A DNA stretch of 29,711 nt from a virus: the IMG/VR virus record IMGVR_UViG_3300031812_000143, positions 1 through 29,711 of that record. The stretch is one strand, 5' to 3'. This document shows positions 7,849-28,808 of this stretch, in pieces. The notes under the pieces were generated by a model, which made no database searches, was not told the origin of the DNA, and saw nothing but the letters and a program-made list of their open reading frames with translations. Both the position numbers and the translations under genes were made by a program. Within the stretch, counting starts at the first letter, position 1, and every line of letters starts with the position of its first letter.

Positions 7849-9543
7849 CTAACTCATTTTGAAAACAAAATCGGTAGGTTTGGTATATCCTGCTAAGTTC
7901 ATTTGACGATATAGTTTGTGTTTATAATTCTGTATTTCCTCAGTTATTATTGAATTTACGGCCTTACCTTTAGCCACTAAATCCAATAAAACATAATGAA
8001 CAGAGGCTACAGCATCAGCTATGTCTTTGGAGGAATTAGGAGAATGATCTATTTTGGGTTTGAAACTAGCCCCTACGATTTTATAACGCAAATTAGAAAG
8101 CTCGTCTATCAAAAGTTGATTTCTAGTTATGTTTATTGTTCTATCTATGATAGCTTTCTTTAAGCTAAAATATATACTTGGGTTTTGATCTACAGATATT
8201 GTTTGAGTTTTGATTCTAGTCTTTATAGTGATATCTTGAAGTAGTTTGTAGGATTGGTATGTATCGGAAGTTACAATTGATATTTGCCTTTGCTTAGCTA
8301 TTTGTGTTATTAAGCCCTCTATGAGATGCATAGGTATGTCGTCGCCTTCGTTGTGGATACCGAAAGCTACGGGGATATAGATAGTGTTCTCGTCATACCA
8401 GTAACCTATGGCTATACCAGTGTTGTCCCCACGTATAGATGTGTCTATATGTACAGCTAGTGCTCTATCAATGGGTAACGCTGATAGTATAGGTTCCAGT
8501 ATAGTATCCATTTGCATGATACTTACCAAATCGTTAGTAACACGTGGGAGGTTCATAACTGTGCTAACCATCTCGCGTGTGAAAAGCGAGTTTGGAGGCC
8601 TTACGCTAACACCAGCTAACGATATCAACGCCTCGTAGATATTAGTGTTAAACTCTTTCTCAAACTCTTTGGGCACCTCTATGATACGTTCAGGTTCGTA
8701 CTTGCTTAATTCCTCGGGTGACACATCCTCCTTATCACCTATTATCTTAGGCTCTCCTAAAATACCGCCTGTATAGACCCAAATAGCACCTTTCTTAAAG
8801 AACAGCCCTGTATGTGCTTTGGCTTCCCACTGCGACATACGAACTGCATAAAAATCTTCAGCTCTGTGCCCTAAAAAATCTACAACACTACCCTCGTAAG
8901 ATGCAGAAGTGTCTATAATAATATTACCTAAATAGTCCTTAGCGGCTAAAAATCTGGATTTGAAACGATTATAAGCTTGCTCTAATTTAAACCTTATGAC
9001 TCCCTCGTTGACAAAGTTAGCTTCCGAAAAAACATAAAAAATCACATCACCACCTATGGAAGAATTGCTCTTAGAACCATCAGCTTGAAAATCTATCGGA
9101 ATTGGCTTCAAATCTTTTTCTAATCTTAGCTCTCTAAGCTCTTGAAATAAATCATGATTCTCAAATATTTCCTTAACATACTCTAAAAACTCAATACGAG
9201 ATTTTTCTATCTTTACATGGAAGAAAACAAATTGAATAGGCTTTGTTATGAATAAGTTAAATGCTTTCAAATCTTTTAGACAGAGTATCTTATGAGCAGT
9301 GTATAACGCTGCGATTTTTGAAACAGTAGACTTACCAGTCCCGATAGCACCAGTTAGAAGGATATAATTATGAGCCGTGTGTATCGGGTCGGGGAAAAGT
9401 TCGTGTAAGTGTCTCATCCATGCCGGATAGATAGAACCTTCTAAACCCAGACGAGCTACAAACTCGTCTATTGTAAGTGGCATGTTAAAGAAACCAGCTC
9501 TCTTAGCCTCCTCAACTAGTGCTGTGTCAAAAAGCATACCCAC
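7849..9543 (-). CDS. terL: Terminase large subunit (DNA packaging ATPase and nuclease)
   Basis: Motor that pumps DNA into the prohead and cuts it to length. 564 aa. The ATPase domain has Walker A GAIGTGKS (65-72) after the strand NYILLT, a Walker B-like VIFYVFSEA (167-175) and a coupling-type motif IIIDTSASYEGS (208-219). The RNase H-like nuclease domain has HIDTSIRGDNTG (Asp367), SIVTSDTYQS (Asp427) and SSKDIADAV (Asp507/Asp510), the usual three-acid set. The Walker B segment has Ser where most terminases have Asp before the catalytic Glu174. It overlaps the upstream HTH gene by 17 nt, and the 490-aa gene follows 5 nt downstream. Expression is expected from the box at 10354-10361. Confidence 0.93.
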   Translation of the reverse strand: MGMLFDTALVEEAKRAGFFNMPLTIDEFVARLGLEGSIYPAWMRHLHELFPDPIHTAHNYILLTGAIGTGKSTVSKIAALYTAHKILCLKDLKAFNLFITKPIQFVFFHVKIEKSRIEFLEYVKEIFENHDLFQELRELRLEKDLKPIPIDFQADGSKSNSSIGGDVIFYVFSEANFVNEGVIRFKLEQAYNRFKSRFLAAKDYLGNIIIDTSASYEGSVVDFLGHRAEDFYAVRMSQWEAKAHTGLFFKKGAIWVYTGGILGEPKIIGDKEDVSPEELSKYEPERIIEVPKEFEKEFNTNIYEALISLAGVSVRPPNSLFTREMVSTVMNLPRVTNDLVSIMQMDTILEPILSALPIDRALAVHIDTSIRGDNTGIAIGYWYDENTIYIPVAFGIHNEGDDIPMHLIEGLITQIAKQRQISIVTSDTYQSYKLLQDITIKTRIKTQTISVDQNPSIYFSLKKAIIDRTINITRNQLLIDELSNLRYKIVGASFKPKIDHSPNSSKDIADAVASVHYVLLDLVAKGKAVNSIITEEIQNYKHKLYRQMNLAGYTKPTDFVFKMS

Positions 9544-9737: not shown

Positions 9738-10349
9738 TTAGAAAGTGAATGCAGGTACTACGTTGAGGAGCGTTTTGTCGTGATGTTCGTAACCAAAACT
9801 TAACGTTACTGTTTCTCTTGCCCCAGAAGGCTCCGTCGGAGTATCGTAGTTGTAATCATAGTTCATAAACAATAAAGTATAAAAATCTAGTCTCTTGACA
9901 GGTTTACGACTAGAATTGAGAAAATAAACTTGAAAAACGGGAATCATAACGTCCTCCTTTCTAAGCTGGAACTTATATCTATTGGCACCACCCGCACTCA
10001 TAAAGGATAATGCCATAGCATAAATGGTCTGATCTTCAAAGTCAATCAGCTCCCACGTTACAGTCCCATCACTTTCATAACCACCATACTGCTTGATATG
10101 GATACCACGAATATTAACATCGACACTACCAACTAAATCTTTTTTGACTTCTAGGGAAAGTGTTTTCATTCTATGCTTTATAACATCTAGACCGGGCCAA
10201 TATACAGCCCTCGGTTTTACAGGGATGTCAATGTCCCACATGTGTTGCCATAAAAACTCTTTGCCACCGCCCGAAAGCTTAGGATACTCAACGAAACCCA
10301 AATAACCCTGTGTAACCCCAAGCTGTGCGAAATCAACAAAGTTGGCCAT
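9738..10349 (-). CDS. Tail tube protein candidate (T4 gp19-like fold)
   Basis: 203 aa from the ATG at 10349 (MANFVDFAQ). An upstream in-frame codon at 10364 is less likely because the late-type box at 10354-10361 lies between the two and is 4 nt from ATG 10349. The beta-rich sequence follows the gp19/Hcp tube pattern. A central block RMKTLSLEVKKDLVGSVDVN is followed by WELIDFEDQTIYAMALSF and a basic strand KFQLRKEDVMIPVFQVYFL, then a C-terminal ETVTLSFGYEHHDKT, where tube proteins end with a 'v.i.fs.Dy'-type strand. A Tyr/Asp loop (NYDYNYDTPTEPSG) precedes the last strand. Its place next to the terminase genes fits a virion protein. The fold is judged by eye only. Confidence 0.55.
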   Translation of the reverse strand: MANFVDFAQLGVTQGYLGFVEYPKLSGGGKEFLWQHMWDIDIPVKPRAVYWPGLDVIKHRMKTLSLEVKKDLVGSVDVNIRGIHIKQYGGYESDGTVTWELIDFEDQTIYAMALSFMSAGGANRYKFQLRKEDVMIPVFQVYFLNSSRKPVKRLDFYTLLFMNYDYNYDTPTEPSGARETVTLSFGYEHHDKTLLNVVPAFTF

Positions 10350-10353
10350 ATAT

Positions 10354-10361
10354 AAATATAC
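10354..10361 (-). promoter_or_regulatory. Late-promoter-like box GTATATTT, minus strand, before the tail tube gene
   Basis: Read on the minus strand this is GTATATTT, spacer ATAT, then ATG at 10349. It would drive tail tube, HTH, terL and the 490-aa gene. It lies 9 bp from the oppositely oriented box at 10371-10378. Confidence 0.6.
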
Positions 10362-10370
10362 CAACTACTG

Positions 10371-10920: not shown

Positions 10921-12297
10921 TCAATCGGATTGACCAAGATTTAAGCTATTTACTATTAGTTCAACGAGCATATCAACTATTACTTCTTCTTCTTTATCTG
11001 TCCTCATGTTTTGTAACATATTGTACCTTTCTCTTTCATCTATCACATCTACTATATAGGCTAATGCTAGCTTAAGCGTCGGAGTAGTAAGTGCTTCTAA
11101 TATTTTATTTATACTCGAAATTTCTTTATTGTCCATGGGTTTTTTCTTGATAGCCTCGTAAATGCTTTTGTTATATAAGTACCTTATATCACTATCCTTT
11201 ATACCATTGATTACCTTTTTTATCCACTGCTTATACTGTGCTTCGGAATCGATAGACTTATACGTTCTAGTATATATATGTGTGGTTATTAGTTGTTTTT
11301 TATGTTTTATCGTTTCTTTATCGTAAACTCCTGCTTTTATAGCTTCATCTACGTCCTTATAAGGTGTGTGTAATAGTAAATACACGATCTTGTTTTGAAG
11401 CATGAAGTACTGTGCCGCTTTTAATGAAGCCCTATACCCAGAACGATCGGTGTCTAAAGCTAGATTTATTACATTATACTTATTCAGTTTAGAAAACTTT
11501 TTACCAGTAATATTCAACCCTAATAATGAAACTACATTTGTGATACCTATGCCATAAAGTGCGATAGCGTCAAAGATACCCTCAGTTACATAAATCTCAG
11601 TGTTCTGATCATAAGGGTTATAGTTATAAACAACATCAACTAGTGATTTATTAGGCTCTGCGGAGTATATATACTTATAGTCCGAATTATTGCTAAGGCT
11701 TCGGAACATAAAGGTTATAACTTTATTGTTTTCTATAATAGGAAGTACAATAAAGCTATTTTCATTAGCCTTAGGGAAGCGCATTTGTTTAATTCTTTGC
11801 TCGCCGTAAAGGTTGACGAGTTCTTTATACATCTGTGAATTCCATACGCCAATCATGAACTTGTTTATAATATTAGTTATATTATCTTGTTTTAGAAAGG
11901 AAAATCTTTCTTGGAGATATTGGAAACCGACGGACTCGGTATTTTTGAGTAACGCCTTAGAGAGATAAATGGCTATCTGCCGCTTGAAGTATAACGGGTC
12001 TCTCTTAGTCTTACCATCTTGGTCAGTCGGGATATTATATCTAGCGCATAAGATTTTAGCAGCGTCTGAGTATGAGACTTGTTCCATTAGAGCCACAAAC
12101 TTGATAACATCGCCACCATGCCCAGAGGAAAAACATTTGAATATATTTTTATCGGGTAGTACAAAAAAAGATGGTTTGGTTTCTTTTTTAAATGGCGATA
12201 AACTTCTATATTGACGGCCTACTTTTTTAAGAACAATACCATAAGACTGTACAACATCGACTATTGAGATGACATTCCGCAACTTTTCAAAATCCAT
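10921..12297 (-). CDS. DnaG-like primase with a degenerate zinc finger
   Basis: Makes RNA primers at the replication fork. 458 aa. The N-terminal domain follows the CHC2 pattern (YRSLSPFKKETKPSFFVLP, then FKCFSSGHGGDVIKF), but the ligand positions are Ser34 for Cys, Lys37 for His and Ser58 for the last Cys, leaving only Cys55. It probably does not hold zinc in the usual way. The TOPRIM core has IYVTEGIFDAIALY (Glu239) and NLALDTDRSGYRA (Asp282, Asp284), the metal-binding set. The C-terminal ~130 residues are helical, charged and not recognised; there is no helicase domain. It starts two bases after the giant gene's stop, so it should depend on that very long transcript or on an internal promoter not seen here. 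Confidence 0.88.
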   Translation of the reverse strand: MDFEKLRNVISIVDVVQSYGIVLKKVGRQYRSLSPFKKETKPSFFVLPDKNIFKCFSSGHGGDVIKFVALMEQVSYSDAAKILCARYNIPTDQDGKTKRDPLYFKRQIAIYLSKALLKNTESVGFQYLQERFSFLKQDNITNIINKFMIGVWNSQMYKELVNLYGEQRIKQMRFPKANENSFIVLPIIENNKVITFMFRSLSNNSDYKYIYSAEPNKSLVDVVYNYNPYDQNTEIYVTEGIFDAIALYGIGITNVVSLLGLNITGKKFSKLNKYNVINLALDTDRSGYRASLKAAQYFMLQNKIVYLLLHTPYKDVDEAIKAGVYDKETIKHKKQLITTHIYTRTYKSIDSEAQYKQWIKKVINGIKDSDIRYLYNKSIYEAIKKKPMDNKEISSINKILEALTTPTLKLALAYIVDVIDERERYNMLQNMRTDKEEEVIVDMLVELIVNSLNLGQSD

Positions 12298-12299: not shown

Positions 12300-15200
12300 T
12301 TAGATATCAACTTTCACGAATCCGTCGTCAACACCTGAGGGCGGATTTTGTGCGATAGCTTTCATATAGCTCGAAGCGATATTCGCGAAAATGCCGCCAT
12401 TACTAAACGCATACTCTGCTTGATGGTGGTAGTCTATGTCGTGTTTATTCCTCACCATAGCCGGAAATGCATGTTGTGCAAAACAGCTGTTTTGGAGCAG
12501 ACGTTCATAGCTATACGTATGAGGCAATTGTATTGATGTATCAGTCGAAAAAGATAGATGCTTCTGGTATGGCCTAATGGTAATGTCTTGGTGTTGATTC
12601 CTGTTTATTGTACCATCACTACTATTTAAAGCTGTATAGAGTTTAAGGCCTATCTCTATTGTATAAGACATAGGTGGAGCGCTATATGTTACTTCCGGTA
12701 CAGGATTACCAAGAAACTTGTAAATGTTATCAGACCTACCAAATATGATGAAGTTAGGGTGAGGCAATGGATGTCCTTCGTATAAGCTATTATCGTTTTC
12801 TCTATACAGGAACATGTTACCTAAGAAATAATCCGCTATCGTGGCTTCGTAATGTAATCCGTGAGAAGTTACCATGTGGTTGTTACTTACGGGGACTCCG
12901 TATTCGTAGGTCAGTTCGTCGCCTGTTCTCGTGAGAGGCGCTGTGTTCAAACCGCATTGAATACTCCAAAGACGCGTCATTGAGGGCTCCGCCTCCACAA
13001 GATGGTAAAAGTTGGCAACAGAAGCGCCAGTTCCCTGCTTGATGATAGCTTGGTCGTATCCACCATACGGTCTATTCATAACGTTAGAACCAGTACGGTA
13101 ACCCTGAGGGATTTGAGTTTCTGGCGGATAACTTACACCACCAGTGTCACTATTCATGTAGTAAAATTGTACTGTACGAGACGGATCGCCTAAATGATCA
13201 AAACTATATAACTCATTAACCCATTCTCTTTCACCAGAGGCATTTCGCACATAACGTTGGGGATTATCCATGTATATAGCGTCTGCACTAACAAATAACG
13301 GCATATTAAGTGTTGTTTCATTAGAGACAGGTTCATTACCACTCAATTGGTCAATCGGGTAAAGTCTGGGTCTAATGAAAACACGACCAGTATCTAAGTA
13401 GAGCGGGTCATACATGTAATGCGAAAGTGTATTCGCCCGTAAAACAGGTTGCTTAATACTTAACTGCTCCATACTTCCATAATCTCTCGCTGTCTTGAAC
13501 ATAGATGCATGCGAGCGTGCGGTACTATTTTGCATGGTAACACCAAAAACCCAAGAAAACCAGAAATAATCTATGCGATGGGTAAAGTTCCATATATTAT
13601 ACCCTCTTGTGTTGTAAGCCATATTAAATGCTATAGGTTGTAACCCAGCCTGCGACAAACCTAATATTATAGATGTGCCTAATTGCTCAGATTTGTCGGT
13701 TTCGCCAGCTTTATCTACATAGCTAATCTGACTAAACGCATCTACTGCTATGCATATGTCACTACCGCTGTACCTTCTCCACATAGAGTAATCTAATGCA
13801 AATAGCGGCGGAAAACTTAAGTTCAGCCAGTCGTATGTAATATCACCAGAAGGAGACATTCTAACCTTAATTATCATTTCTTTCGGAAAGCGGAATAACA
13901 TATTAATATCATCGCCCAAAAGTTTGACCGCACTCATGCTGTAAGAGTATACGTCTATAAGAAACTTATTTATAGGCCAGTAAGCTAACCAATCAAAAAC
14001 GGAAAATGGAGCAGTATTGCGAATCAACAGATCAGCATAATTCATATTATACTCAAACCTTCCAAAGCCGTTGAATTCCAAGTAAAATAGATTATTGTTA
14101 GGAATATTGTAACTAAATCTGAAACTAGCATTAGGCGATGTGTTGTAAAATAAATCAAGAGTAAAACTCTTTTTGTACATATCATTAAGTGGTGTTTGCA
14201 TTCTGTTGCTAACTATAACATTATCAAACTCTATGTTATACATGCTGTTAGTGAATATTGAGTTAGCAATATCTATATCTGATCGTAAAGTTCTATGACT
14301 AGTAGTATTATCAAAAATTGTGCTTTCACCTTTATGCTGAAATATGGGCTGTGGTTCTATATCGCTTGCAAATATAGCAGTCCTATATAACGATAGACGC
14401 CGTGTCGATAGGCTAGTGTTGAAAGTATAAAATACTGGCACATAAGTAGCTTCTGGTATGAGTATTCTGGGTTGTACTCTTGCACTATCTATCGATGCGG
14501 GCGGGACGCTATGATTGATGATATAATTATCACTGTTGAGCAGGAAGTATAATCCTCCAAGCCATTCGTAGGGAGACACTGAACCACTATAAGTACCGTT
14601 AGACACAAAAATACCATAAAACGGAGAACTGGATTCACGGAGAGTATAAGCATGATCAATTATGTTATATGTAGTTGTAAATATCAAATCTCTCTTAGTC
14701 CAGTATAGGCTTTCAGGTTGTGTAATATTGTTAAAGAACAAATCATAATAAGGGTCATTCATATTACCATCAGTAGTCTGTCCATTATTTGAGCCGTCAT
14801 TAAATACATCTATGGCTGTAACCACTCCACCATTCCCAGATGAGTTAACTAACCGATCATATTTTTCATAATCATACAATGTTTGAGTGTTTAATCTGTA
14901 CAGGTCGTAATATTTTGGTTCTAATAAGGCTTTAATAGTATAGTAATGATGTGGAGAGATCAGGAATCTTTTAATGTTCATATTCTCAACTCTCATATTT
15001 ACTTCTGTATGTTGCATGTGCGGCCAGTAGTTATTATACGTCACAGTATCATTCAAGTCATGTAACAGCTCCATATCGAATCTCATTTCATGAACAACTT
15101 TATTATTGTAGGCTGAAGAACCTAACACGTGAGACAGGTACAACATAGTATGAGTAGGGTTACCGTACATACTCAAAAAGAAAGTTTGAGGGTTATGTAG

Positions 15201-18200
15201 CTGCATAATATCCATGGCATATCCTGGTAAGGTACGATAGACATAGCGGCGTATTTCTTGCGTCCTTGTAAGCATGGGCAACGTGTTGGTGTACATTGTC
15301 ATGTGATTTAGCCAACGGCGTGGCACAGGCAAATGCTGCGCACCAGTACCAGTACCGTTAAACCAATATCCGATGTCCCACTCGTGATACGACCATTTAT
15401 CGTAGCCTAACCCACTAGCCTCAATAACAGCACCAATAGGAAAAGAAAAAGTCAATTCCAAATAGGATACATCCCAATAAGTACTGTTATCAAGGCTAAT
15501 TCTATACTGTTGATAATCTGTTTCCGAATTACCCGTAATAACAAGATCTCCTAAAATCCCAGCATCTATAACAGCTCGTTGCCATATTAAACGCGTAAGA
15601 AAACTAAAAATACGATCGGGGTAAATCTCACTATTAGCTTCAGTATGAGAAATGTGTCGTGGGCTAACATTGCCTAAAGCACCGTACGGAACATAAGCAA
15701 GATAATCACTCATATACAATGACGCACAGCTTAAAGCTTCTTTTTGATATATAGATAGTGGATCTATGATTATGGGTTTAGGATATATAGTTAGTACATC
15801 TATCAAGTACGGATTTCTTGCCCAGAATATAACTCTTTCCTCACGCTTTATACTAGTGATTGTATGAAACAGTGATTTAGGTGATTGAACGTACTTAGCT
15901 GTTTCCAACTGATTGTTTGTGCCCCTAATTGTATTTGCTACATTTACTTGTACTTCGCGACTGCTATTGATCGGCATACTGCCTGCAGAGGCAAAGTTAG
16001 TAGTTTCTCTAGCGGGTAGATGGTATTCTCCGAAGTGACGATCAGTATATTGGGAATAGTTTCTTGCTCCGACTGCCCCAGCGGGGCCCACACTATACGC
16101 ATGCGTAGCATTATAACCCAAAGGCATCACACCTACACTCACCCTAAGTCCATCCACCATCGGCATCCTAACACGATACCTATATCGTTTAGCCCTCTTG
16201 TAAAACTGAGACAGAACCTTATAATCATTATATACGAAGTAAATGTTAGCCTTATTGGCTAGTTCAGACCTAATGTAATAAGGATTACCTACAAAAAATA
16301 ATGCTTTTGCTGAAACACTCTGATTAAGCATAAGATTGAATTCCAGATGAGTACTTGGAATATAAATACCTTCATTAGGTAATGGTACATAGGAACGATA
16401 GTGATAAGATTGTAGTAGCAAGTCTTCATAAATAAGTCTACTAGTTATGTAAAAGTAGTTACGAATGTTAGCGCCAGATCTTGAAAGTGCACTATTAGAA
16501 AAAATCCCGAAAGCAGAAGACAACGGCCTCTTGATTATATCACGTTCCAAAATCATTTTCGTACTAGCATACGAAGCACTTATATTATAATAGTCAACTG
16601 TATAAATATTACTCATATTGCTTATATTGCTAATATTACTAAGCGTGTTAGGCGAATATTTGAGTATATTTAGAAAGTCTGTTGTAACTTTTGTGTTCTG
16701 ATCTTTCGGATGACCAAGTACACCTATTCTGTCTAAGTGGTAGCTTGTATGTTCTTCATTTTGCGCGTGGAAATAAAATATCATCATGTCGTACGCAGCT
16801 GTATCTGTTCCATAATAGTTGTAAAGCTTTCGTAACACCAGCTCCGATGTCTTAAGATTTGGGCTAGTCCCAGCTAAGAAATTCATCGCGCCCGCCATGG
16901 CTAAAGCAGAACGATTATTCTCTAAAAAACTTCTTAATTCAGTGTCTTCACTAGCAGCAGCAACATCATAGTATGCGTGCCTATAAATACCACTCAGATC
17001 ATAGGTAGAATAATCAATAGCGTCACTTTCCAGATACGACAACATAGCTGATTGACTCATAGCCCTATTCCCTCTTACATCCACATTTGTACTTAAATTC
17101 AAGGGGGTATGGTTGAAATCGTATTGCCCGTCAATATAAATACTATATATTGGCATACCTCTGTTCTTGTAACCCAAAGATGTAAGTGGATATCTATACA
17201 ATGTTTTAGAATATCGTATAATATCAGGAGAGAATTTTTCTGTTATAGATTTCTTGTTATACTCTATCATTAAATCGGCGAAGGGATAAAATAACTTTAC
17301 GTAAGGTATACCGTATGACACAAGCGGATAAAACTTTTGAGTACCTATATACACTAAGTTCAGCTTGGCCGTAGACGTATAGAATGGTTCGTATTGATGT
17401 TCCACTTTCGACGGATCTAAAACTTGTTCATTAGTTAAGAACACAGGATATGATACAAAATAATATAACTCAGTAGGTATAAAATGTTTAAGTGCTAGCT
17501 CTTGGTTAAAGTGTACTTTTCTGAATAAACGTTCAATTGAATTACCGTCATTGTAATAGTAGTACAATGGTATGTTAGACAGCATATACTGTTGTAAGTA
17601 GAATGACCCGCCTAATGGTGTACCATAAGGTGGTGTGTCAAAGCAGATATGGTTGTTAGTATATAACAACTGGCTTGATGCCCAACGGCCATAGCTTGTC
17701 CTTCTTAGCTGAATATTTTGCACCCTAAAACTATTATATGGAAGATTATAACTCTTACGAATACCATGAACAGCAAATAAGGGTATGGCAGGTTGGTAAT
17801 TACTAATAAGCATATTATATATAAAACCCTGAGGTATCTCAACTAATGCCGAAGTCTTCAGAGACATCGTATTAAACACACTACCAGTATTTAACATAGT
17901 AGAACGATATACATCACTAATAACTGAAAATCGTGTAGTGTTAGTACTATTAGGGAATCTTCTTGTATATTTATTCAGCCTCAATGACTTATTAACAGGA
18001 ATGTCGCCATACGGTCTTTCGTAAGCGATAAAATCTTTATATGGATTTACTACACGACCATAACTATAACCGTACTCGGAGTTAACGCTGAATTTAATTT
18101 GTGATTGGGTAGGTGTAAAATTAGAGGTTGAGCCAGTAATATTATCAATAAAATCTTGGTTATTGAACCAGAAAGCCATTCTTGGCGATATAATATGTTG

Positions 18201-21200
18201 ACTGTTAGTATATCGCATCCAGTATCCATATCCCGTAAATGGTGAGAAGGCTGCCCGCTGAGCATTCAAATGCATGAGATTCTCAGCATAACGCCCAATA
18301 TATGGCCAATACCATGGCTTGATATTACAATCAAAGAAAAAAATACTATCATCAGATCTTTTGTAATAAGATTCAGCTTGCACATTAGCACCTATTAAAT
18401 CATAAGGCCAAGCAAAAAGATTACCTATACGATAAAAGACATCGTAATCATCCTCAAAAGACTTTGGAGGCACAACATACACTAATCGCTTCATCATGGA
18501 CTGATTACTAGACCAACGAATGCCTACAGAAGTAACCAATGGATCATTATTATACTCTGCTGTCATATAACCTGTTCTATCAGTATTGAACTGGGAATTC
18601 AAAGTGTTTTGTATGTTGACGGACGGAGTTATCACATTGTAATAGAAATATGCCTGATTACTTCCATAAAAGCGTCCCAAACTACCAGCAATTCTACTCC
18701 ACTTAGGAACATGACCTAAGCTAAAATCATAAAATATATTGTAAAAACCTTTATCATACACATTATTACTATCACTAGAATGCAGAGTAGATGTCGGATA
18801 TATCCTATATCTTGGAATTTCATCTTTCACAAAAACCATCTTGGTAACTATCGGCAATCTAAAGCTAAACAAACGCGTAACTATATCTTTACCAGGGAAT
18901 AAAAACCTTTGATTTGGATTTTGCAAACTTATATCTTCAGCTCTAAATCTATAAAGTGAGTTGCTTATTGTGTTAGTAGTTATGTCGGTGGGCCAGTTAC
19001 TATCGTAATAAGATGATGGCAGATATAAATTATTCGGTGTATAGTCGTCCGAATAGTATACAGTCTTAGGAGTACCACCGAAGTAGTTGTTATATATAGT
19101 GAAGTCTAAGAATGGCGCAAAGGTATTTAGAGATAAAGCAGATATCGTAAATTTATGTAGTTTTACATAATCATCTAACTTGATACCATCTTGTGTAAAA
19201 TTTACAGTCGACTTATTAGTTATCCTATATCTACCATATCTATCAATATTTGTCAGCTCTACTCTGTAAAAATAGACCTCTTCAAAACCTTCATATAGGG
19301 TACTCACATTTTGTAGTAGCCCCTGTCTAGGTTCAGCGTCTAATCCTGCTGACCACTTGTTCCACGCGTAGTCTGTAATGAAACCAACGTACTCCATATG
19401 CCAAAACCCAGAAAAAGGATTAGGCCCAACATTGATAACATTTTGGCTACTTACTATATTATCATTTTCATCAACCCTTACAAAGCGTGTCGGATTATCA
19501 TTTAGAACATCTGCATCGGCTCGTTCATTAGTTAAGTTATCCATAAACATGAACAGAACGTTTTTAGGATTGTAAGGATTATCATATACTATCATAGGCT
19601 CGTCAAATCTTTCGGTCTCATGGAGCATGACATTGCCTAGGTCTTTGTTTCCATATATACTAAGTCCACCAGTTGCGCTGACGTCACGCGTATTGGCATC
19701 GCTTCTACCGTACCGCAATGCGTCACTAAATTGACTATACTGAAGTGTCTGGGCTGGCAAATCTATCTCAAAGATAAGCCTTTGATAATATTGCGAGAAC
19801 TCGTCTGGATCAGCCGCTCTCGGCAAGTTATAAACCACACTAGTACCAACTAAGTCATTGTATCTGTTTGATATTAAACTTATATGTTCAGCCTTTTTGA
19901 TGGTTGGTATCTTATTGGTAGTGTTTATTCTGTCATTAGAAAGATAGTTTATATCTGGCATCATTGTTATGTAGTCTCTTTGCCTTTTTAGTATATTCGA
20001 GTTATCTATTACGCCATAAGATATAGGATGTTCTGTAACAAGACTTATCTTGCCTTTATATTTATTGACTCGGAACTCTTTACCCACAGCTCTATTGAAA
20101 ACGTCTTCCGTTTTAAACTTCACGTAGACAGCCTCACTCCAACCAAAGGCCGTAGTCTCGTAATTATAATCATCTGGTACTATAATCTCAACATCCTGTT
20201 CGTCTTTATCATATGGATAAGTTGTTCTATCGCAGAAATCCAACTCGTCTCTAACTACCCGATAAATATCCCCAAAGCAATTTATAACAGTGGCTTCATT
20301 AACGATATAGTAAGCACTACCAGCACTAACACCGTCTTCAATAGGATGCAAATAGTCTGTGGTAATATAGTTTTGGCCGATAGCCGAGTTGTTGCTAACT
20401 AAATCGGCCAAAACATTACCACTCACTATGTCTTCAAATTTTTCTAAGTTACTACGTTGTGAAGTCGGAGGTATATTAAATTGAGGACTTACTAAGTCAA
20501 TCAAATTGTGTCTTATTCTACTCATGCCTTTTAGTGTTCTAGGCACAATTGGTTCTATAAATTGAGTTTTTGTGCGCAAATAAACTTTATTATTATGATA
20601 AACAGCCACAAAATCATTATTCAAACTCTCAGCTAAGATTTCATCATTTACTTTGTAAAGTCTAATAACTACAACAAAAGTTTTTGTGTTTCTATAATCC
20701 AAAACGTGATATGGTTTTCTTCCTGAGTAATTTTTTTCCTCGTATTGTATTATCCCAGAGAAGTAATAGGCTGGGTTAGGAGTTACACGGCTAGGATAGT
20801 AGTAAGCCATAATTGGTCTGGGCCACATTCTGGGATGCGAGAACGCCCAAGCTTGCGGCTGACGCACTTCACCAGTGGAAAAAGTTGGGAATAATAGATT
20901 ATGAAAGTTCCATGTACCTATAAGTTCGTAATTTTGATATATGGTGTTATAAAAATTGTTGCCATTAAAACTCGCGTTAAGAGGTACAGGATTTGGGTTA
21001 TTAGTGGAAGGTAAAACATTAGAGTTCATAAGACGACGAATATAGTCTCTATTACTCTCGTGTACCATAACATATGCTCCGAGCGGGTTATAAGTTATAT
21101 ACATAGGTGTTAACAGATCAGTCTGATAGTAACTGCTTTTAATTACTATATCATCATATATCTTATAATAAGCCATATGCCGCTTCGCGACATCGTTGTT

Positions 21201-24200
21201 GATGTTATTCCCTTCTGCCAATTCAACACACATGCTTAGCAATGGCCTAACTCTTACATTAGGGAAAAATATCCTATTTGTCAAGGCTATGGTACGCAAC
21301 ACACTATAGGCAAAAAATCTTCTTTGAACGTCAAATTCAGCACATTCGGCAATTCGTTCACATTCAGGTTTTTCTGTTGAAAATGTACTGACGTAAGATG
21401 TCCACCTAAAAATGTTATAATTAGGCATATAATAGCTTCTAAAATCATCAAAACTGTTCCATAGCTTATCACCATTATTGTACATAGTATTGTTATAAGT
21501 AATCATAAGATTAGTCAATCCATTCATCGTTATAACGTAGCCCATTGTCTTTACTGATAGGGTAGTTTGTGTTAGTTTGTCTATTAGTACATGATTTCTT
21601 ACCTCGGAACTTATGAACACAGAACCCGCGTCAATGTAAAAGGGATTAAAATCTGAGCCTAAAAGTGGATTATTAGGATGAACTAAAAATCTAGCGTATC
21701 CAGAAGTTGCGTTTAGGTTGCTGGGAGGGATTCTTAAGTATCTAATTGTTCTTTGCTCGTATTCACCACTATCATTACTATTTAGAAAGTCCTTAATATG
21801 TATTAGTTTACCGATGCGTTCTATGGCTGTAAAGCTGCCACCGACATCTACAAAAAAGTAACCCAAAAAACTATTATAATAGCCATAATTTCTCAAATTT
21901 ACAATTTCGTCATCCGTAGTACTGTTAGGATTGTTTATATAGTACTTTTTTACGTTTTCTACCATTTCAGGAACGTTATCGTTAGGACGTATATCACGAT
22001 AAGTATTGAAAGCTTTAAAATGAGGTTTTATATCAAATCTTGGTAATATGGTATTGACATCTCTATATGGATACAATGGTAAGTAAGGTGCAAAAAACTC
22101 GTAACGCGATACTGTATAAACAGCATCAAGTGAATTACTTGTAAATTTGTGAGTACTTATACTTCTAATAGGACCAGGTAGCTTCATGTTATATCCATAA
22201 TCTGGAGGCACAATATATAAATAAGTAAGTTCGGCGTTTTGCGTATTCATTTCAGTATCGGGCATATGATTAGATACACGACCATGCTGCCAATATCCGT
22301 TTCTATCGGTTAATACAACAAAAAACAATGGTAATAAATGGTTATATGTCATAAGTGGTAATCTGTATGTGCTTAGATTTATATTACCTAACAATAAATT
22401 CATGTCAGGCACTGGATGTATGTCGTTATGGAAATAAGCGAAACGGTACTCGTAACCTAATCCGTATCTACTGGATGCCGCACCAAATTCCGGAGCATAA
22501 GAAAGCATACTATCAAAAGACTGCCAACACCAGGGTATGCTCGGTGATGCATCTGGATAATCAGGCACGGCTAACGTATAACTCATCAGGGCTAAAGCTA
22601 TCGCCCGATGTTGGAAAAACTTCTCACTATCTGTATTACCCACGTAGTTACTATTTATAGACCCACTATAAATATTCATACGCCGTAACCTTCTAGGCAA
22701 CTCAAAAGCTGTATCATTATTATCTACTTTACCCATTACTCTTACAGGTGTATTAGTAATACCGAAGGGTTGGATAAAAGTAAACACACGTCGCAAACGT
22801 CTGTCTATACTATTATCATCCGATGGCATATTTGAGATAGTAAATCCTAACTCGTGAGCGACACCTGGATCTATTTGCTTTCTAAAATATACATTACTCC
22901 ATAATAGTCCTCTAATATTAGTAGGCGAAGTAGCAAATAAATAATTATCTCTTATCCGATTTTCATTTATGAAGGCTGTATAAGTGTCCGGGTAGTTAAC
23001 CCAATTACAGAAGTTGGTAAGTATAAAGTTACTCGTCCTATTATTTATAAGTTCTCTACCAAAAAACGAATTAGACATTGCATTTATTAATTGTATTGTA
23101 TTATTCATATTTTGTACTGCTCTTATTGCCATAAACGCCATTTGTCTATTGAACGGTGGGAGCATAGTATGGTAATCAGAAAGCGCTGTAAAATAAGCGT
23201 AAGTCATTGTTGTGGTAGAGAACCCACTAGCTGGATTAATGTGATAATAGCTATTAGCCTGAGTGTAAGCTTTCAAGATTGTATTGTCCCTACGTTCGTT
23301 TTCCTGTATCCCAAAAGGTATTCTAAAATGGAAGTTATACTGCCTAGGTGTTAAACTATATCTACTAAATGTCGCCGGTTTTAATAGTATGGAAGTACCA
23401 CTATTACTAGTGAAACAATACGAATCTATTAGATAAATAGGGTAAAACTCTTGATACATTGGCATAAGGCCAGTGGGGATTGTTCTAGTCTTATGGCTTA
23501 TGAAATCTTTATCGCTTATATTGAGTTTGTTTTCCATATATGTTTTACGGCTGCTTAATCCAAATTCAACGGCATCCTGAGAACCATAAAAGTGCATCAT
23601 TGCCGCAGAAGCATAACCAGAAACGATATAATCAGAAGTATAATACGGCGTGAAATAAGTTCCATAACGATACTTAGAACCAGGCTTATACCTCAATGAC
23701 ATGCCGTAACTGAAAGAACCACCAAAACCAGCATGCTTAAAAGTTGAAATACCATCCTGGCCAGAAATAGAAAACACATATTCAAAAAAGTCGTAATTAG
23801 AATCTATATGACTTACACCAGACCAAGTAGAACCATTATAATACATAGGATAAAAATATCCATACGTCTTCATATTCTGGAAAGCGTTATGATTTACTAA
23901 TCGATTACTATATATGTGTCCAGAATTATCATGATTAAAACTAAAAGCATTGTTATGATTGTCTAAATCAAAAGATTCATAATAGAAGACTGTAGGAACA
24001 TAGAAATACGGATACATATATCTTTTATAGCTACCATTTGACATAGTTTCTGTTTTCGTAGGCATGCTGCTGTATAACAAATCCATAAAAACTCTGCGAT
24101 AATTATCATTATTGACTGAACCAAATGGTATATGTTCCGCTGCCCTAAGAATCTTGACTCTTGTAACACTATAGTCATAAAATGTTATATTGTCTAAAAT

Positions 24201-25055
24201 ACCCTCCTTAATCAACTTGTGGTATGCAAAATTTCTTTTACTAGAATCTGGTATAAAAGGCATATTTATCCCATCGGAAGACTTTACATGTTTTGTTCTT
24301 GTATTGCCTAAGTAACTATTTATAGACAAGTTATCTGTAAACCAATAACTATTAGCACTTAACCCGTATGTGTTGATTTCGTTTGTATTAAAGTAATGGT
24401 CGGGTTCGCTGGATGAGTAATCAAAAACGTAGTACTCATATCGGTTTGTTAAATCATAACTATGCAGAAAAGCATCAAGAGCATTAGCTCTATCAGGGCC
24501 AACGTTATAAGTATCAACTACCAGCTTTTGACGCCATATGGAAAATTCATAGGTTTTAAAATCATCGGCCAATTGAATGTAACTATAACTCCTATTAAAT
24601 CTATTGGAATACTTACCCTTTATTACCAAAAACGCATTATTTAATTGCGCCGTAACAAGCTTACCAGAATTAATATACCTACTCAAGTCAATGCACAGGT
24701 ATTTGCCATCAGATAGCAACCTAAGCTGCTCGACAGTGGGGTTATTAGAATGTACTGCACCATGACTTCTTTTTAGTGCCCCGTCTTTTTTTCTATTAAT
24801 GTAGTCATTGACGAGAGACTTCACCTTGCCAACTAACTCTACTATGTTAGCGTCAAACTGATCTGAAAAATCGTTACTTGCGTTTACACCAGTGCCATCG
24901 TACTTGCGATTTTTCAAGCGGTTCCATAACAACAATATCTGTTGTGTAGATACAAATGATAAAGGTGCTAAAAGGAATAAATCATGCGGCTCGATACACA
25001 ATAATAATAATGACAATAATATGAAAGACTGAATTGTTTCAAGTATTTTTATCAT
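12300..25055 (-). CDS. Giant 4251-aa protein of unknown function with an N-terminal membrane hairpin
   Basis: One uninterrupted frame of 12.75 kb, 43% of the window. Residues ~8-46 hold two hydrophobic stretches (FILLSLLLLC; LFLLAPLSFV...ILLLW) separated by EPHD and followed by the basic NRLKNRK, so the N-terminus is probably membrane-inserted. The remaining ~4200 residues are rich in Tyr, Asn, Ser, Pro and Arg and look beta-rich, without long coiled coils, low-complexity blocks or a known motif. Weakly similar segments recur, such as NPFYIDAGSVFIS (near 21640) and DPLYLDTGRVFIR (near 13400), hinting at diverged repeats. It starts in an ATGA overlap with the spanin, and primase follows after two bases. 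There is no RNA polymerase DxDGD motif and no tape-measure-like helical repeat. A surface fibre, a decoration protein or an envelope-spanning protein are all possible. Confidence 0.85.
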   Translation of the reverse strand: MIKILETIQSFILLSLLLLCIEPHDLFLLAPLSFVSTQQILLLWNRLKNRKYDGTGVNASNDFSDQFDANIVELVGKVKSLVNDYINRKKDGALKRSHGAVHSNNPTVEQLRLLSDGKYLCIDLSRYINSGKLVTAQLNNAFLVIKGKYSNRFNRSYSYIQLADDFKTYEFSIWRQKLVVDTYNVGPDRANALDAFLHSYDLTNRYEYYVFDYSSSEPDHYFNTNEINTYGLSANSYWFTDNLSINSYLGNTRTKHVKSSDGINMPFIPDSSKRNFAYHKLIKEGILDNITFYDYSVTRVKILRAAEHIPFGSVNNDNYRRVFMDLLYSSMPTKTETMSNGSYKRYMYPYFYVPTVFYYESFDLDNHNNAFSFNHDNSGHIYSNRLVNHNAFQNMKTYGYFYPMYYNGSTWSGVSHIDSNYDFFEYVFSISGQDGISTFKHAGFGGSFSYGMSLRYKPGSKYRYGTYFTPYYTSDYIVSGYASAAMMHFYGSQDAVEFGLSSRKTYMENKLNISDKDFISHKTRTIPTGLMPMYQEFYPIYLIDSYCFTSNSGTSILLKPATFSRYSLTPRQYNFHFRIPFGIQENERRDNTILKAYTQANSYYHINPASGFSTTTMTYAYFTALSDYHTMLPPFNRQMAFMAIRAVQNMNNTIQLINAMSNSFFGRELINNRTSNFILTNFCNWVNYPDTYTAFINENRIRDNYLFATSPTNIRGLLWSNVYFRKQIDPGVAHELGFTISNMPSDDNSIDRRLRRVFTFIQPFGITNTPVRVMGKVDNNDTAFELPRRLRRMNIYSGSINSNYVGNTDSEKFFQHRAIALALMSYTLAVPDYPDASPSIPWCWQSFDSMLSYAPEFGAASSRYGLGYEYRFAYFHNDIHPVPDMNLLLGNINLSTYRLPLMTYNHLLPLFFVVLTDRNGYWQHGRVSNHMPDTEMNTQNAELTYLYIVPPDYGYNMKLPGPIRSISTHKFTSNSLDAVYTVSRYEFFAPYLPLYPYRDVNTILPRFDIKPHFKAFNTYRDIRPNDNVPEMVENVKKYYINNPNSTTDDEIVNLRNYGYYNSFLGYFFVDVGGSFTAIERIGKLIHIKDFLNSNDSGEYEQRTIRYLRIPPSNLNATSGYARFLVHPNNPLLGSDFNPFYIDAGSVFISSEVRNHVLIDKLTQTTLSVKTMGYVITMNGLTNLMITYNNTMYNNGDKLWNSFDDFRSYYMPNYNIFRWTSYVSTFSTEKPECERIAECAEFDVQRRFFAYSVLRTIALTNRIFFPNVRVRPLLSMCVELAEGNNINNDVAKRHMAYYKIYDDIVIKSSYYQTDLLTPMYITYNPLGAYVMVHESNRDYIRRLMNSNVLPSTNNPNPVPLNASFNGNNFYNTIYQNYELIGTWNFHNLLFPTFSTGEVRQPQAWAFSHPRMWPRPIMAYYYPSRVTPNPAYYFSGIIQYEEKNYSGRKPYHVLDYRNTKTFVVVIRLYKVNDEILAESLNNDFVAVYHNNKVYLRTKTQFIEPIVPRTLKGMSRIRHNLIDLVSPQFNIPPTSQRSNLEKFEDIVSGNVLADLVSNNSAIGQNYITTDYLHPIEDGVSAGSAYYIVNEATVINCFGDIYRVVRDELDFCDRTTYPYDKDEQDVEIIVPDDYNYETTAFGWSEAVYVKFKTEDVFNRAVGKEFRVNKYKGKISLVTEHPISYGVIDNSNILKRQRDYITMMPDINYLSNDRINTTNKIPTIKKAEHISLISNRYNDLVGTSVVYNLPRAADPDEFSQYYQRLIFEIDLPAQTLQYSQFSDALRYGRSDANTRDVSATGGLSIYGNKDLGNVMLHETERFDEPMIVYDNPYNPKNVLFMFMDNLTNERADADVLNDNPTRFVRVDENDNIVSSQNVINVGPNPFSGFWHMEYVGFITDYAWNKWSAGLDAEPRQGLLQNVSTLYEGFEEVYFYRVELTNIDRYGRYRITNKSTVNFTQDGIKLDDYVKLHKFTISALSLNTFAPFLDFTIYNNYFGGTPKTVYYSDDYTPNNLYLPSSYYDSNWPTDITTNTISNSLYRFRAEDISLQNPNQRFLFPGKDIVTRLFSFRLPIVTKMVFVKDEIPRYRIYPTSTLHSSDSNNVYDKGFYNIFYDFSLGHVPKWSRIAGSLGRFYGSNQAYFYYNVITPSVNIQNTLNSQFNTDRTGYMTAEYNNDPLVTSVGIRWSSNQSMMKRLVYVVPPKSFEDDYDVFYRIGNLFAWPYDLIGANVQAESYYKRSDDSIFFFDCNIKPWYWPYIGRYAENLMHLNAQRAAFSPFTGYGYWMRYTNSQHIISPRMAFWFNNQDFIDNITGSTSNFTPTQSQIKFSVNSEYGYSYGRVVNPYKDFIAYERPYGDIPVNKSLRLNKYTRRFPNSTNTTRFSVISDVYRSTMLNTGSVFNTMSLKTSALVEIPQGFIYNMLISNYQPAIPLFAVHGIRKSYNLPYNSFRVQNIQLRRTSYGRWASSQLLYTNNHICFDTPPYGTPLGGSFYLQQYMLSNIPLYYYYNDGNSIERLFRKVHFNQELALKHFIPTELYYFVSYPVFLTNEQVLDPSKVEHQYEPFYTSTAKLNLVYIGTQKFYPLVSYGIPYVKLFYPFADLMIEYNKKSITEKFSPDIIRYSKTLYRYPLTSLGYKNRGMPIYSIYIDGQYDFNHTPLNLSTNVDVRGNRAMSQSAMLSYLESDAIDYSTYDLSGIYRHAYYDVAAASEDTELRSFLENNRSALAMAGAMNFLAGTSPNLKTSELVLRKLYNYYGTDTAAYDMMIFYFHAQNEEHTSYHLDRIGVLGHPKDQNTKVTTDFLNILKYSPNTLSNISNISNMSNIYTVDYYNISASYASTKMILERDIIKRPLSSAFGIFSNSALSRSGANIRNYFYITSRLIYEDLLLQSYHYRSYVPLPNEGIYIPSTHLEFNLMLNQSVSAKALFFVGNPYYIRSELANKANIYFVYNDYKVLSQFYKRAKRYRYRVRMPMVDGLRVSVGVMPLGYNATHAYSVGPAGAVGARNYSQYTDRHFGEYHLPARETTNFASAGSMPINSSREVQVNVANTIRGTNNQLETAKYVQSPKSLFHTITSIKREERVIFWARNPYLIDVLTIYPKPIIIDPLSIYQKEALSCASLYMSDYLAYVPYGALGNVSPRHISHTEANSEIYPDRIFSFLTRLIWQRAVIDAGILGDLVITGNSETDYQQYRISLDNSTYWDVSYLELTFSFPIGAVIEASGLGYDKWSYHEWDIGYWFNGTGTGAQHLPVPRRWLNHMTMYTNTLPMLTRTQEIRRYVYRTLPGYAMDIMQLHNPQTFFLSMYGNPTHTMLYLSHVLGSSAYNNKVVHEMRFDMELLHDLNDTVTYNNYWPHMQHTEVNMRVENMNIKRFLISPHHYYTIKALLEPKYYDLYRLNTQTLYDYEKYDRLVNSSGNGGVVTAIDVFNDGSNNGQTTDGNMNDPYYDLFFNNITQPESLYWTKRDLIFTTTYNIIDHAYTLRESSSPFYGIFVSNGTYSGSVSPYEWLGGLYFLLNSDNYIINHSVPPASIDSARVQPRILIPEATYVPVFYTFNTSLSTRRLSLYRTAIFASDIEPQPIFQHKGESTIFDNTTSHRTLRSDIDIANSIFTNSMYNIEFDNVIVSNRMQTPLNDMYKKSFTLDLFYNTSPNASFRFSYNIPNNNLFYLEFNGFGRFEYNMNYADLLIRNTAPFSVFDWLAYWPINKFLIDVYSYSMSAVKLLGDDINMLFRFPKEMIIKVRMSPSGDITYDWLNLSFPPLFALDYSMWRRYSGSDICIAVDAFSQISYVDKAGETDKSEQLGTSIILGLSQAGLQPIAFNMAYNTRGYNIWNFTHRIDYFWFSWVFGVTMQNSTARSHASMFKTARDYGSMEQLSIKQPVLRANTLSHYMYDPLYLDTGRVFIRPRLYPIDQLSGNEPVSNETTLNMPLFVSADAIYMDNPQRYVRNASGEREWVNELYSFDHLGDPSRTVQFYYMNSDTGGVSYPPETQIPQGYRTGSNVMNRPYGGYDQAIIKQGTGASVANFYHLVEAEPSMTRLWSIQCGLNTAPLTRTGDELTYEYGVPVSNNHMVTSHGLHYEATIADYFLGNMFLYRENDNSLYEGHPLPHPNFIIFGRSDNIYKFLGNPVPEVTYSAPPMSYTIEIGLKLYTALNSSDGTINRNQHQDITIRPYQKHLSFSTDTSIQLPHTYSYERLLQNSCFAQHAFPAMVRNKHDIDYHHQAEYAFSNGGIFANIASSYMKAIAQNPPSGVDDGFVKVDI
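16606..16641. repeat. Four tandem 9-nt repeats inside the giant gene
   Basis: Four units of consensus ATATT(G/A)CT(T/A/C) lie end to end. On the coding (minus) strand they give a short SNI/SNM run (LSNISNISNMSNIY). A small local expansion in an otherwise complex sequence; no function suggested. Confidence 0.8.
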
Positions 25056-25573
25056 AGGTTATTTTTTATATAACTTCTAATACCTCTCATCATGGCAATT
25101 ATAAGAAAGATTATTACGAATACTATGAATGCTATTGTAATGAAATCATCATAAAACTTATTTTTATCAAAAGATTTCTTAGGTTCTGCGTATCTTGTTA
25201 TGTACACTGTTTTTTCTCTTATTATCGTATCTGTAACACAGTCTCCTTTGACGTATACTGTATCGTTCTGTCTAATGATTCTAATCTGCATTCTATCGTT
25301 TTTGATTTGTATTGTATCTGATTTTTTCAACGTGTCTATACGAATTATAGTATCTAATCTTATGCTATCGCGAATTATGGTTAGGGTTTCCGAACTATCG
25401 TATGGTGTTTCTGGTAGCTTATACGTGTTTACTAAGTAACTGTACACGAATTCTGGGCTGGTTAGTTCTGCAGCCTTGCTGATTTTTTTGACTGCTCGTT
25501 TTTCTCCACTGCAGGAAAGTAGTAAGGTTGTCAATAATAAGATAACGGCGGTTTTGATTTTGAATAGCCACAT
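25052..25573 (-). CDS. Unimolecular spanin candidate (lipoprotein with C-terminal membrane helix)
   Basis: 173 aa. The N-terminus is a lipoprotein signal: MWLFKIK, hydrophobic ILLLTTLLLS, then Cys21 in LLSC. Residues ~144-161 (ITIAFIVFVIIFLIIAMM) are a transmembrane helix followed by a basic tail (RGIRSYIKNNL). Between them is a ~115-residue periplasmic part full of short alternating T-D-T-I/V strands (SIRLDTIIRIDTLKKSDT, NDTVYVKGDCVTDTI). An outer-membrane lipid anchor at one end and an inner-membrane helix at the other is the architecture of u-spanins such as phage T1 gp11, which fuse the two membranes at lysis of Gram-negative hosts. No endolysin is visible nearby. The stop overlaps the giant gene's start (ATGA), and a late-type box lies 9 nt upstream. 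Confidence 0.6.
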   Translation of the reverse strand: MWLFKIKTAVILLLTTLLLSCSGEKRAVKKISKAAELTSPEFVYSYLVNTYKLPETPYDSSETLTIIRDSIRLDTIIRIDTLKKSDTIQIKNDRMQIRIIRQNDTVYVKGDCVTDTIIREKTVYITRYAEPKKSFDKNKFYDDFITIAFIVFVIIFLIIAMMRGIRSYIKNNL

Positions 25574-25621: not shown

Positions 25622-26836
25622 ATGGCATTCACAGTAAGAGCAGGTGACGTCAAGCGTATTATAAAAGCCATTGCACAGAGTGGCGGAGACCGCAGGGCAC
25701 TAATGCCTGATATTCTGCAAAACTACATGAGTATAAGGCAAGATAACGAGACAGCTATTCTGGAAGCACGTACTGGCAACGTATATGTCACCAGCCGTCT
25801 TCCGATATTACCGATACCCAACGGAGGAGACCTACAAGTACTAACACCTAAAAAAGCCCTCAAAGACCTTATCAGTACATATAATGACGACAGTATTCTA
25901 TCATTTAGCCATTTTAAGACATCCGATACGAACGGAATTCATACACAAACAGAACAATACAACGGACAGTTACTGATACAATCTAATGACACATCCAAGT
26001 ATAGTATAAAATGCGGGTTCCCCGAGGAATGGAGTGAATTAAACATAAAAGCAGATGGCGAGTGTATAGAATTTTCTATACCAGCTGCTTTACTTATTTC
26101 TGGCCTACAAAAGGTTGCCTTCGCTACAGCAAAAGAAGACCATAGAGAGAGTCTAAACGGGATCAACTTTAATATCAGCAATAACAAAATCAGGCTTATC
26201 GGAACTGATGCCATCACACTAGCTATGTGTATCATAGACCATATAGATACATCTATACCTAAGTCATTGTCTTTTACATTACCTAACGAAACAGTAGAAA
26301 CTATAAAAAACTTCTTCAACGCTAAGGAGCAAAATCCAATCAAGATAACATTAATGTACGACAAAGACGAACAGCTTAGAATAGTTGGTTTCTCGGACGA
26401 CAAAAATTCTATTTACAGCTATGTCATAAACTATCCGTTCCCTTCTGTAGATGGTATAATAAAACCAGAAAATGAGTATAACATGTTAGTTGTAAATAAA
26501 ACAAAAATCATGGAAGTAATCAAAAGATTTCAAAAAATATCTGATGGTAAAGAACAGTCTTTTAGAATCAATATAAAAAATAATACGATGATGCTGACAC
26601 AAAATTCTTATAGTTTTGGTGAAGGTAGGGAGGTTATAGAGATAGAAAGGTGGTCGGGTGGTGAAATTGAATTAGCATTGTCCGTTAATAGGATTTCTGA
26701 GATACTTAGTAATATTACTGCCGTTGAAGAAATTAGAATTGGAATACAGAACCCTAACCGTCCTATAGCCTTTTTCTACGATGATGAGGATAACCGCTCT
26801 CACGTCCAGATACTTGTAATGCCTGTGATTCAATGA
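25622..26836 (+). CDS. dnaN: DnaN-type DNA polymerase sliding clamp
   Basis: A ring that tethers DNA polymerase to DNA. 404 aa, somewhat longer than bacterial beta clamps (about 370). The second-domain signature is clear: VAFATAKEDHRESLNGINF, then IRLIGTDAITLAM (residues 165-202), matching 'FA.s.de.RP.LnGv.f.....l.lvaTDghRLA'. The end (HVQILVMPVIQ) matches the typical '..yv.MPmrl' finish, where beta clamps bind partner peptides. The N-terminal domain (MAFTVRAGDVKRIIKAIAQ) fits the fold. No late-type box precedes this gene; the weak TAGTTTCG at about 25601 could be a host-type -7 element. The ATG at 25622 is the first in-frame start. It overlaps the next gene (ATGA) and leads a clamp-spike-methyltransferase unit. 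Confidence 0.88.
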   Translation: MAFTVRAGDVKRIIKAIAQSGGDRRALMPDILQNYMSIRQDNETAILEARTGNVYVTSRLPILPIPNGGDLQVLTPKKALKDLISTYNDDSILSFSHFKTSDTNGIHTQTEQYNGQLLIQSNDTSKYSIKCGFPEEWSELNIKADGECIEFSIPAALLISGLQKVAFATAKEDHRESLNGINFNISNNKIRLIGTDAITLAMCIIDHIDTSIPKSLSFTLPNETVETIKNFFNAKEQNPIKITLMYDKDEQLRIVGFSDDKNSIYSYVINYPFPSVDGIIKPENEYNMLVVNKTKIMEVIKRFQKISDGKEQSFRINIKNNTMMLTQNSYSFGEGREVIEIERWSGGEIELALSVNRISEILSNITAVEEIRIGIQNPNRPIAFFYDDEDNRSHVQILVMPVIQ

Positions 26837-27381
26837 GTGTGATGATACTAAAAGGCACTGTGACTTCCATAGTAGATGCTAACAAAAGAATTATAACAGT
26901 TACATCCGACTATGGGCACGGCACATTTACAGGTACACTCTTATTCACCCCGCATAACATAGAAGTAGAAGATAAAGTAATAATTTTAATTCCAGCTAAT
27001 ATCGCTATCACAAACGCCTACTTCATCCCACTATCCGACAAAACAGAACACGGACTGGACAAAATAAAACTACACTTCACGCCAGAAAGTACAATAGATA
27101 TTACAGAAAATGATATAAACATAAAACATAAAGATGCGTTAATCCACATGAATGAAGACGGCATAGAAATGTCTTACAAACAAAATACTTTTATAAAATT
27201 CACAGAAGATAAAGCTGATTACGAGAGTAAGGAGATTAACATAGTAGCTGGACAGAAAATATATGTGCCTGGACTTCCAGATACTAGTAACGCAGAACCT
27301 AAGGGTGGATTTTCCAGAATCCCCTTTTGTCCATTTACGGGAGTTGTTCATACAACCGATACGATGAATAATGTATCATAA
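26833..27381 (+). CDS. Baseplate spike/puncturing protein candidate (OB-fold plus beta-helix)
   Basis: 182 aa. Residues ~5-60 (ILKGTVTSIVDANKRIITV through VEDKVIILIPANIAITNAYFI) look like the OB-fold of gpV/gp5-type spikes: a small barrel around 'G.V..v....g.v.V.l..g', then 'Gd.Vvv....n...a.vl'. Residues ~78-150 are regular short strands (STIDITENDINIKHKDALIH, DGIEMSYKQNTFIKFTED, YESKEINIVAGQKIYV) that would wind as a triple-stranded beta-helix in a trimer. The end (IPFCPFTGVVHTT) could form a tip; it contains Cys and His but I cannot assign metal ligands. Such spikes pierce the outer membrane when a contractile tail fires. It overlaps the clamp stop (ATGA) and touches the methyltransferase start with no gap, an unusual setting for a tail gene. 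Confidence 0.55.
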   Translation: MSVMILKGTVTSIVDANKRIITVTSDYGHGTFTGTLLFTPHNIEVEDKVIILIPANIAITNAYFIPLSDKTEHGLDKIKLHFTPESTIDITENDINIKHKDALIHMNEDGIEMSYKQNTFIKFTEDKADYESKEINIVAGQKIYVPGLPDTSNAEPKGGFSRIPFCPFTGVVHTTDTMNNVS

Positions 27382-28763: not shown

Positions 28764-28808
28764 TAACTTGCCTTGCGTGTTCGTCGTAATGCTTGGTATG
28801 ACGACGCA
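28764..28808 (+). repeat. 45-bp start-region repeat, copy 1
   Basis: Matches 29535-29579 with two mismatches in 45. It runs from TAACTTGCC through the leader and ends in the codons for MTT of the following gene. Within it CGTCGT and ACGACG flank the start codon and can form a 6-bp stem around the ATG, which could limit translation. TAACTT(T/G)C may be a promoter -7 box (inference). Confidence 0.75.

Follow-up and report, generated by a model that had tools for sequence, protein, structure and literature searches.

A 4,251-residue protein outside known families, probably a virion component, in a contractile-tailed phage lineage

The Giant Gene and Its Neighbours

The stretch of DNA analysed here, called the window, is the whole IMG/VR virus record IMGVR_UViG_3300031812_000143 (29,711 bases), classed as linear, a class that has no end repeats and often represents a genome fragment. 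Most of the IMG/VR samples used here are probably hot-spring phototrophic mats; a search of papers found no confirmation of this, and no conclusion depends on it. A preliminary description, made from the letters alone, had pointed to a frame of 4,251 residues at 12300-25055 filling 43% of the window, and this was borne out: an open reading frame with an ATG start runs on the minus strand from 25055 to 12300 and takes up 12,756 of the 29,711 bases. Complete, uninterrupted copies of the gene were found on five other contigs (4,176, 4,194, 4,220, 4,225 and 4,260 aa), with the same gene neighbours in the same order, and the products are 73-88% identical over the alignment. The features of the window are the following:

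25052..25573, minus strand: lipoprotein-like protein with a lipobox (LLSC) and a C-terminal TM segment, a u-spanin-like anatomy (from sequence features)
12300..25055, minus strand: giant gene, 4,251 aa, outside known families (open reading frame and five relatives)
24924..25046, minus strand: two hydrophobic stretches of the giant, residues 4-44, KD about 2.0 and 1.6, present in the six close relatives and not in the distant homologue (from hydropathy)
19533..20864, minus strand: segment of the giant, approximately residues 1398-1841, common to a 3,310-aa homologue (i-E 1.4e-6, high composition bias)
15984..16397, minus strand: segment of the giant, residues 2887-3024, common to the same homologue (i-E 8e-15; tblastn 30% identity, E 1e-14)
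12345..13022, minus strand: C-terminal region of the giant, residues 4012-4237, where conservation is highest (27-31% identical between giant and distant homologue)
10921..12297, minus strand: DNA primase, directly downstream of the giant (phrog_6444, E 1e-44)
9738..10364, minus strand: probable tail tube protein, 208 aa (weak profile similarity to a tube annotated in a myovirus)
7849..9543, minus strand: terminase large subunit
6371..7843, minus strand: fast-diverging 490-aa protein next to the terminase, about 47-92% identical among relatives
26833..27381, plus strand: probable baseplate spike (matches VgrG weakly, E 0.066, and has a 489-aa homologue on the distant relative G006)

In the direction of transcription the order is lipoprotein-like protein, giant, primase, tube candidate, a 69-aa HTH protein, terminase and 490-aa protein; the opposite strand carries a DnaN-like clamp, the spike candidate and a methyltransferase. 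The assignments of the tube, whose match spans the common stretch 'IRGI-hIKQ-G-Y---GTvT', and of the spike are probable. The stop codon of the lipoprotein gene overlaps the start codon of the giant (ATGA) in all six contigs, and in the six giants the N-terminal hydrophobic stretches carry basic flanks; residues 4-44 form a possible membrane-interacting hairpin, which could insert into, or touch, a membrane.

Several other features were recorded in these contigs. A 94-nt direct repeat (10718-10811 and 28139-28232 of the window, 84% identical) is dispersed in the relatives too, and in the close relative G003 a TnpB-like open reading frame (13304-14605) has a copy at its 3' end; the repeat may be an IS200/IS605-type remnant. 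The open reading frame at 876-1370 of the window contains an unbroken poly-glycine tract of more than 20 residues and shares 80% identity with its counterpart in one relative and 98% with that in a second. A very acidic coiled protein is encoded at 28768-29442, and there is a paralogous gene family, seen also at 3700, 17012 and 26694 of the relative G005, with a common leader like PCVFVVMLxMTTQAQVSGTELKVRIEKALTEK; this suggests gene duplication with conserved upstream DNA. G005 also encodes, at 5440-8160, a 906-aa M16 (insulinase-like) metallopeptidase exceeding the Pfam cut-offs.

Family Searches, Composition and Structure Prediction

The absence of a recognisable domain, already noted in the preliminary description, was confirmed by profile searches with the giant protein, which gave no match in Pfam at E ≤ 1, chance-level best matches in PHROGs (E 0.04-0.1), a best NCBIfam match below the cut-off (E 0.079) and none among PDB sequences at E ≤ 10; a known large family, such as tape measures or RNA polymerases, was thus not matched in any of these collections. 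Neither half of the protein matched any of 50,697 phage records by tblastn, and scans of GTDB genomes, which were seeded by short peptide patterns and detect mostly close relatives, found no relative of the giant. Scans of IMG/VR using the giant alone returned close relatives only; the distant homologue described below was reached via a terminase profile.

The protein is rich in Tyr, Asn and Ser (8.5% each), with Thr at 6.5% and little Lys or Glu. The earlier view of a Tyr/Asn/Pro-rich chain was therefore right for Tyr and Asn, whereas Pro, at 5.2%, is modestly raised and Ser takes its place. That the chain is also beta-rich is an impression based on composition, and a beta-like nature was not shown: the hydrophobicity pattern had neither helical periodicity nor beta alternation, and structure prediction by AlphaFold2 on both ends (residues 1-1100 and 3150-4251, six-sequence alignments), another of the checks that had been proposed, yielded no usable fold (mean pLDDT 26.7 and 25.4). 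Internal repeats were not found, either by profile-profile comparison of the protein or by self-comparison of the DNA.

A Distant Homologue in a Contractile-Tailed Relative

Sequence comparison assigns the window virus to a contractile-tailed phage lineage, because two relatives carry sheath genes and the named phages whose terminases come nearest have annotated sheaths. The window, a genome fragment in which the lack of further tail genes carries no weight, does not include the sheath; the evidence comes from G003, which encodes a 723-aa sheath (phrog_23, E 5.6e-9), and from G006, whose sheath is homologous to it. Escherichia phage IME392, Acinetobacter phage Ab1-TPeters and Thermus phage phiLo are among the phages with the nearest named terminases (27-29% identity), and a sheath is annotated in all three; their whole records gave no match to the two best-conserved segments of the giant.

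G006 (IMGVR_UViG_3300044959_000348, 170,695 bp) came from a scan whose query, a terminase alignment, also contained named myoviruses; the terminase of this contig is 48% identical. A profile of the C-terminal quarter of the giant matched a long open frame on this contig (E 2.6e-14), and the two features of interest are:

G006 165831-155899, minus strand: 3,310-aa homologue of the giant (HMM of the six giants, full-sequence E 1.2e-21)
G006 150918-153458: tail sheath, convergent to the block that holds the giant homologue (phrog_23, E 1.2e-15)

The HMM aligned with the 3,310-aa protein in four collinear segments (model positions 1374-1818, 2430-2563, 2889-2994 and 4007-4187, with i-E of 1.4e-6, 2e-4, 8e-15 and 1e-14, respectively), and the reversed protein gave nothing significant. 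At the N-terminus the similarity is barely detectable (i-E 4e-4, against 0.028 for the reversed control) and a relation there is suggestive only. A forced global alignment gave 23.6% identity, against 21.9-22.7% for reversed and shuffled controls; since this is about one percentage point above the controls, homology is claimed for the ordered HMM segments only. The two proteins are alike in their collinearity, similar composition and common C-terminal region, and the sheath and terminase of the two lineages are homologous too, but the G006 protein, known from this single contig, is about 940 residues shorter and lacks the N-terminal hydrophobic stretches. Its N-terminal 1,950 residues matched none of the 50,697 phages by tblastn.

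The location of the gene also differs. On G006 it sits inside the tail module, near the sheath, in a block (170415-153960) transcribed from the minus strand, whereas in the window it lies between the lipoprotein and primase genes. On G006 the homologues of these two genes are together, about 31 kb away from the giant, and the giant has therefore moved relative to them; since they are apart, the coupling of giant and lipoprotein is either not ancestral or not needed, and we dropped it as a functional clue.

Other large genes lie next to one another on G006 at 137451-148748, where a product of 1,964 aa contains a P-loop-like GTGKT, one of 939 aa an HExxH and one of 849 aa a VWA-like DDSGS; a comparison with Pfam gave no convincing match, and together they may form an ATPase/VWA module for assembly or remodelling within the structural region. 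The ends of the contig form a 295-bp terminal inverted repeat (99.3% identical), which is either a true end of the genome or a fold-back artefact of assembly.

Selection and Divergence

The giant is a real, conserved gene under selection. Its dN/dS was 0.13-0.22 in all pairs (pairwise NG86, six contigs), a range that resembles those of the clamp (0.12-0.22) and the primase (0.09-0.14); the tube candidate had 0.03-0.04, the spike candidate 0.05-0.09 and the terminase 0.07-0.10, the values for these five genes coming from comparisons that involve the window's own copy. The strong selection expected from so long an open frame is thus clearly present as purifying selection, and is not diversifying, but it is looser than on core virion genes such as the tube candidate and the terminase. 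Protein identity among the relatives is 90-98% for the terminase, 91-98% for the tube candidate and 90-94% for the spike candidate, against the 73-88% of the giant.

Between the window and G005, the DNA of the left arm is 92.5% identical as far as the tube gene, and beyond it the giant protein is just 71-73% identical. The dS of the giant is 1.45 in this pair, against 0.69 for the adjacent primase and 0.46 for the lipoprotein; because this is about two to three times the value of its neighbours, the alleles of the giant have had a partly separate history, which suggests allele exchange of the kind that is common at host-recognition loci. Block recombination without a role in host recognition would give a similar pattern. 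The fastest-diverging conserved protein of the window is the 490-aa protein (dN/dS 0.18-0.31), a possible second host-interaction protein.

What the Giant Protein May Be

The preliminary description had proposed a very long fibre, a particle coat or an envelope-spanning conduit. The evidence favours a virion tail part, with nothing positive for a conduit, and between a fibre and another tail component the data do not decide. A structural role is proposed because of two indirect indications, the tail-module position of the G006 homologue and a virion-like composition: when the window and its five close relatives were compared by composition (113 open reading frames, each at least 180 aa long), the three nearest to the giant proved to be the sheath and both copies of a 291-aa protein that matches a baseplate hub weakly (E 0.058), and proteins resembling DNA enzymes or transposases, as well as acidic ones, were among the most distant. 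On this basis we regard the giant as probably a part of the virion. That it is, more narrowly, a tail-associated structural protein, probably an adsorption appendage or an outer baseplate component, is a reading for which we judge the chances about even, and a role in adsorption, which its divergence above that of terminase, tube and spike and the apparent allele exchange would favour, hangs similarly in the balance.

We infer a very large, non-repetitive component of the contractile tail, held to it at least partly by the conserved C-terminal region, with a long body that would reach toward the cell surface. The C-terminal stretch of about 225 residues would be the best candidate for a shared function, for example tail anchoring or folding and oligomerisation, and the rest may be free to vary in length (3,310 against 4,251 residues) and sequence, which would be expected of a body that is exposed and faces the cell. 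A comparison is offered by the long tail fibres of myoviruses, such as T4 gp34 and gp37. The giant resembles them in the tail-module location of its distant homologue, its non-helical composition and its faster divergence than core genes, but it is 3-4 times longer and matches no fibre family. As a textbook fibre it fails on two counts: it has none of the repeats of most fibre shafts, and its strong cross-lineage matches (about 2887-3024 and 4012-4237) lie toward the C-terminus, the opposite of the typical fibre with a conserved N-terminus and a variable tip. Also counted against an appendage were the dN/dS without diversifying selection, the place of the gene outside the tail block in the close relatives, and the N-terminal hydrophobic stretches, which could mean membrane insertion.

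Part of this evidence would serve equally for a virion component that is not an adsorption device, such as an inner baseplate part, a tail sleeve or a head-internal, ejected protein. The tail-module location and the composition, nearest to the sheath and to a possible baseplate-hub protein, are the same; a repeat-free chain suits a multidomain body over a fibre, and the hydrophobic N-terminus could suit an ejected protein. The faster divergence and the apparent allele exchange, however, fit a protein that is exposed better than one that is buried, and the giant is very large for a baseplate subunit, so that we consider this the less probable course, though one to be taken seriously. A non-virion envelope protein acting during infection, membrane-anchored, linked to the lipoprotein by the ATGA overlap and serving lysis, release or superinfection exclusion, would account for the pair of hydrophobic stretches, flanked by basic residues, in the six close relatives and for the overlap with a gene of u-spanin-like anatomy. 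On G006, where the lipoprotein homologue lies beside that of the primase and far from the giant, and the giant has no such stretch, both are missing; since conservation extends to neither the coupling nor the anchor, we find this reading improbable.

Two further possibilities come from the giant tape measures of Thermus phages. That of P23-45 (5,002 aa) is a virion protein that hides an RNA polymerase, with no detectable similarity beyond the DFDGD that marks it (PMC10770324), and that of P74-26 has 5,006 aa; thus the giant, described earlier as far longer than typical tape measures, is indeed very long, but longer ones exist and tape measures can reach about 5,000 aa (PMC10770324). Like the giant, these are single huge proteins that take a large share of the phage genome, yet they are A/E/L-rich and helical and serve as rulers for a very long tail, whereas the giant is Y/N/S-rich and belongs to a contractile-tailed lineage. 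Its size and phage context would suit a tape measure, an identity that the preliminary description had denied, citing the lack of helical repeats. With the P74-26 protein as control this denial stood: the giant is helix-poor (A 4.8, E 3.6 and L 7.8%, against 12.8, 9.9 and 13.5%) and its hydrophobicity autocorrelation at lags 3, 4 and 7 is -0.03, -0.02 and 0.00, against +0.03, +0.07 and +0.07, which largely refutes the identity. Moreover, G006 has a better candidate, a 1,044-aa protein with a coiled coil and a TM segment, whose phrog_18891 tape-measure match is at chance level (E 0.6), and we regard a tape measure as barely credible. An enzyme packaged in the virion, an RNA polymerase or a protease diverged beyond recognition, has the P23-45 precedent and the conserved H, E and D residues of the C-terminal region in its favour. 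The motifs speak against it: HExxH occurs in one of seven giants, and DxDxD in none of the six, with a single unshared D.D.D in the distant homologue, whereas the P74-26 control shows DFDGD at 779; this contradicts a two-barrel RNA polymerase and agrees with the earlier failure to see a polymerase, although the absence of DxDxD is weak alone, as about 0.75 chance matches are expected. We therefore hold a packaged enzyme to be very unlikely.

Returning to the tail-associated virion protein, we tentatively suggest, as an idea more likely wrong than right, that the giants form a new class of non-repetitive virion components (3,300-4,260 residues) confined to a little-sampled contractile-tailed lineage, with a structure absent from known phages, for example a tail sleeve, or an arm of several domains attached through its C-terminus. 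If it is part of the virion, the giant would be among the largest phage structural proteins known to us, outside the described families, and would mark a contractile-tailed lineage, with a terminase about 30% identical to those of named myoviruses, whose tail is unusual. Through its 170.7-kb relative and its conserved C-terminal region, this protein is open to deeper alignments, structure prediction and virion proteomics.
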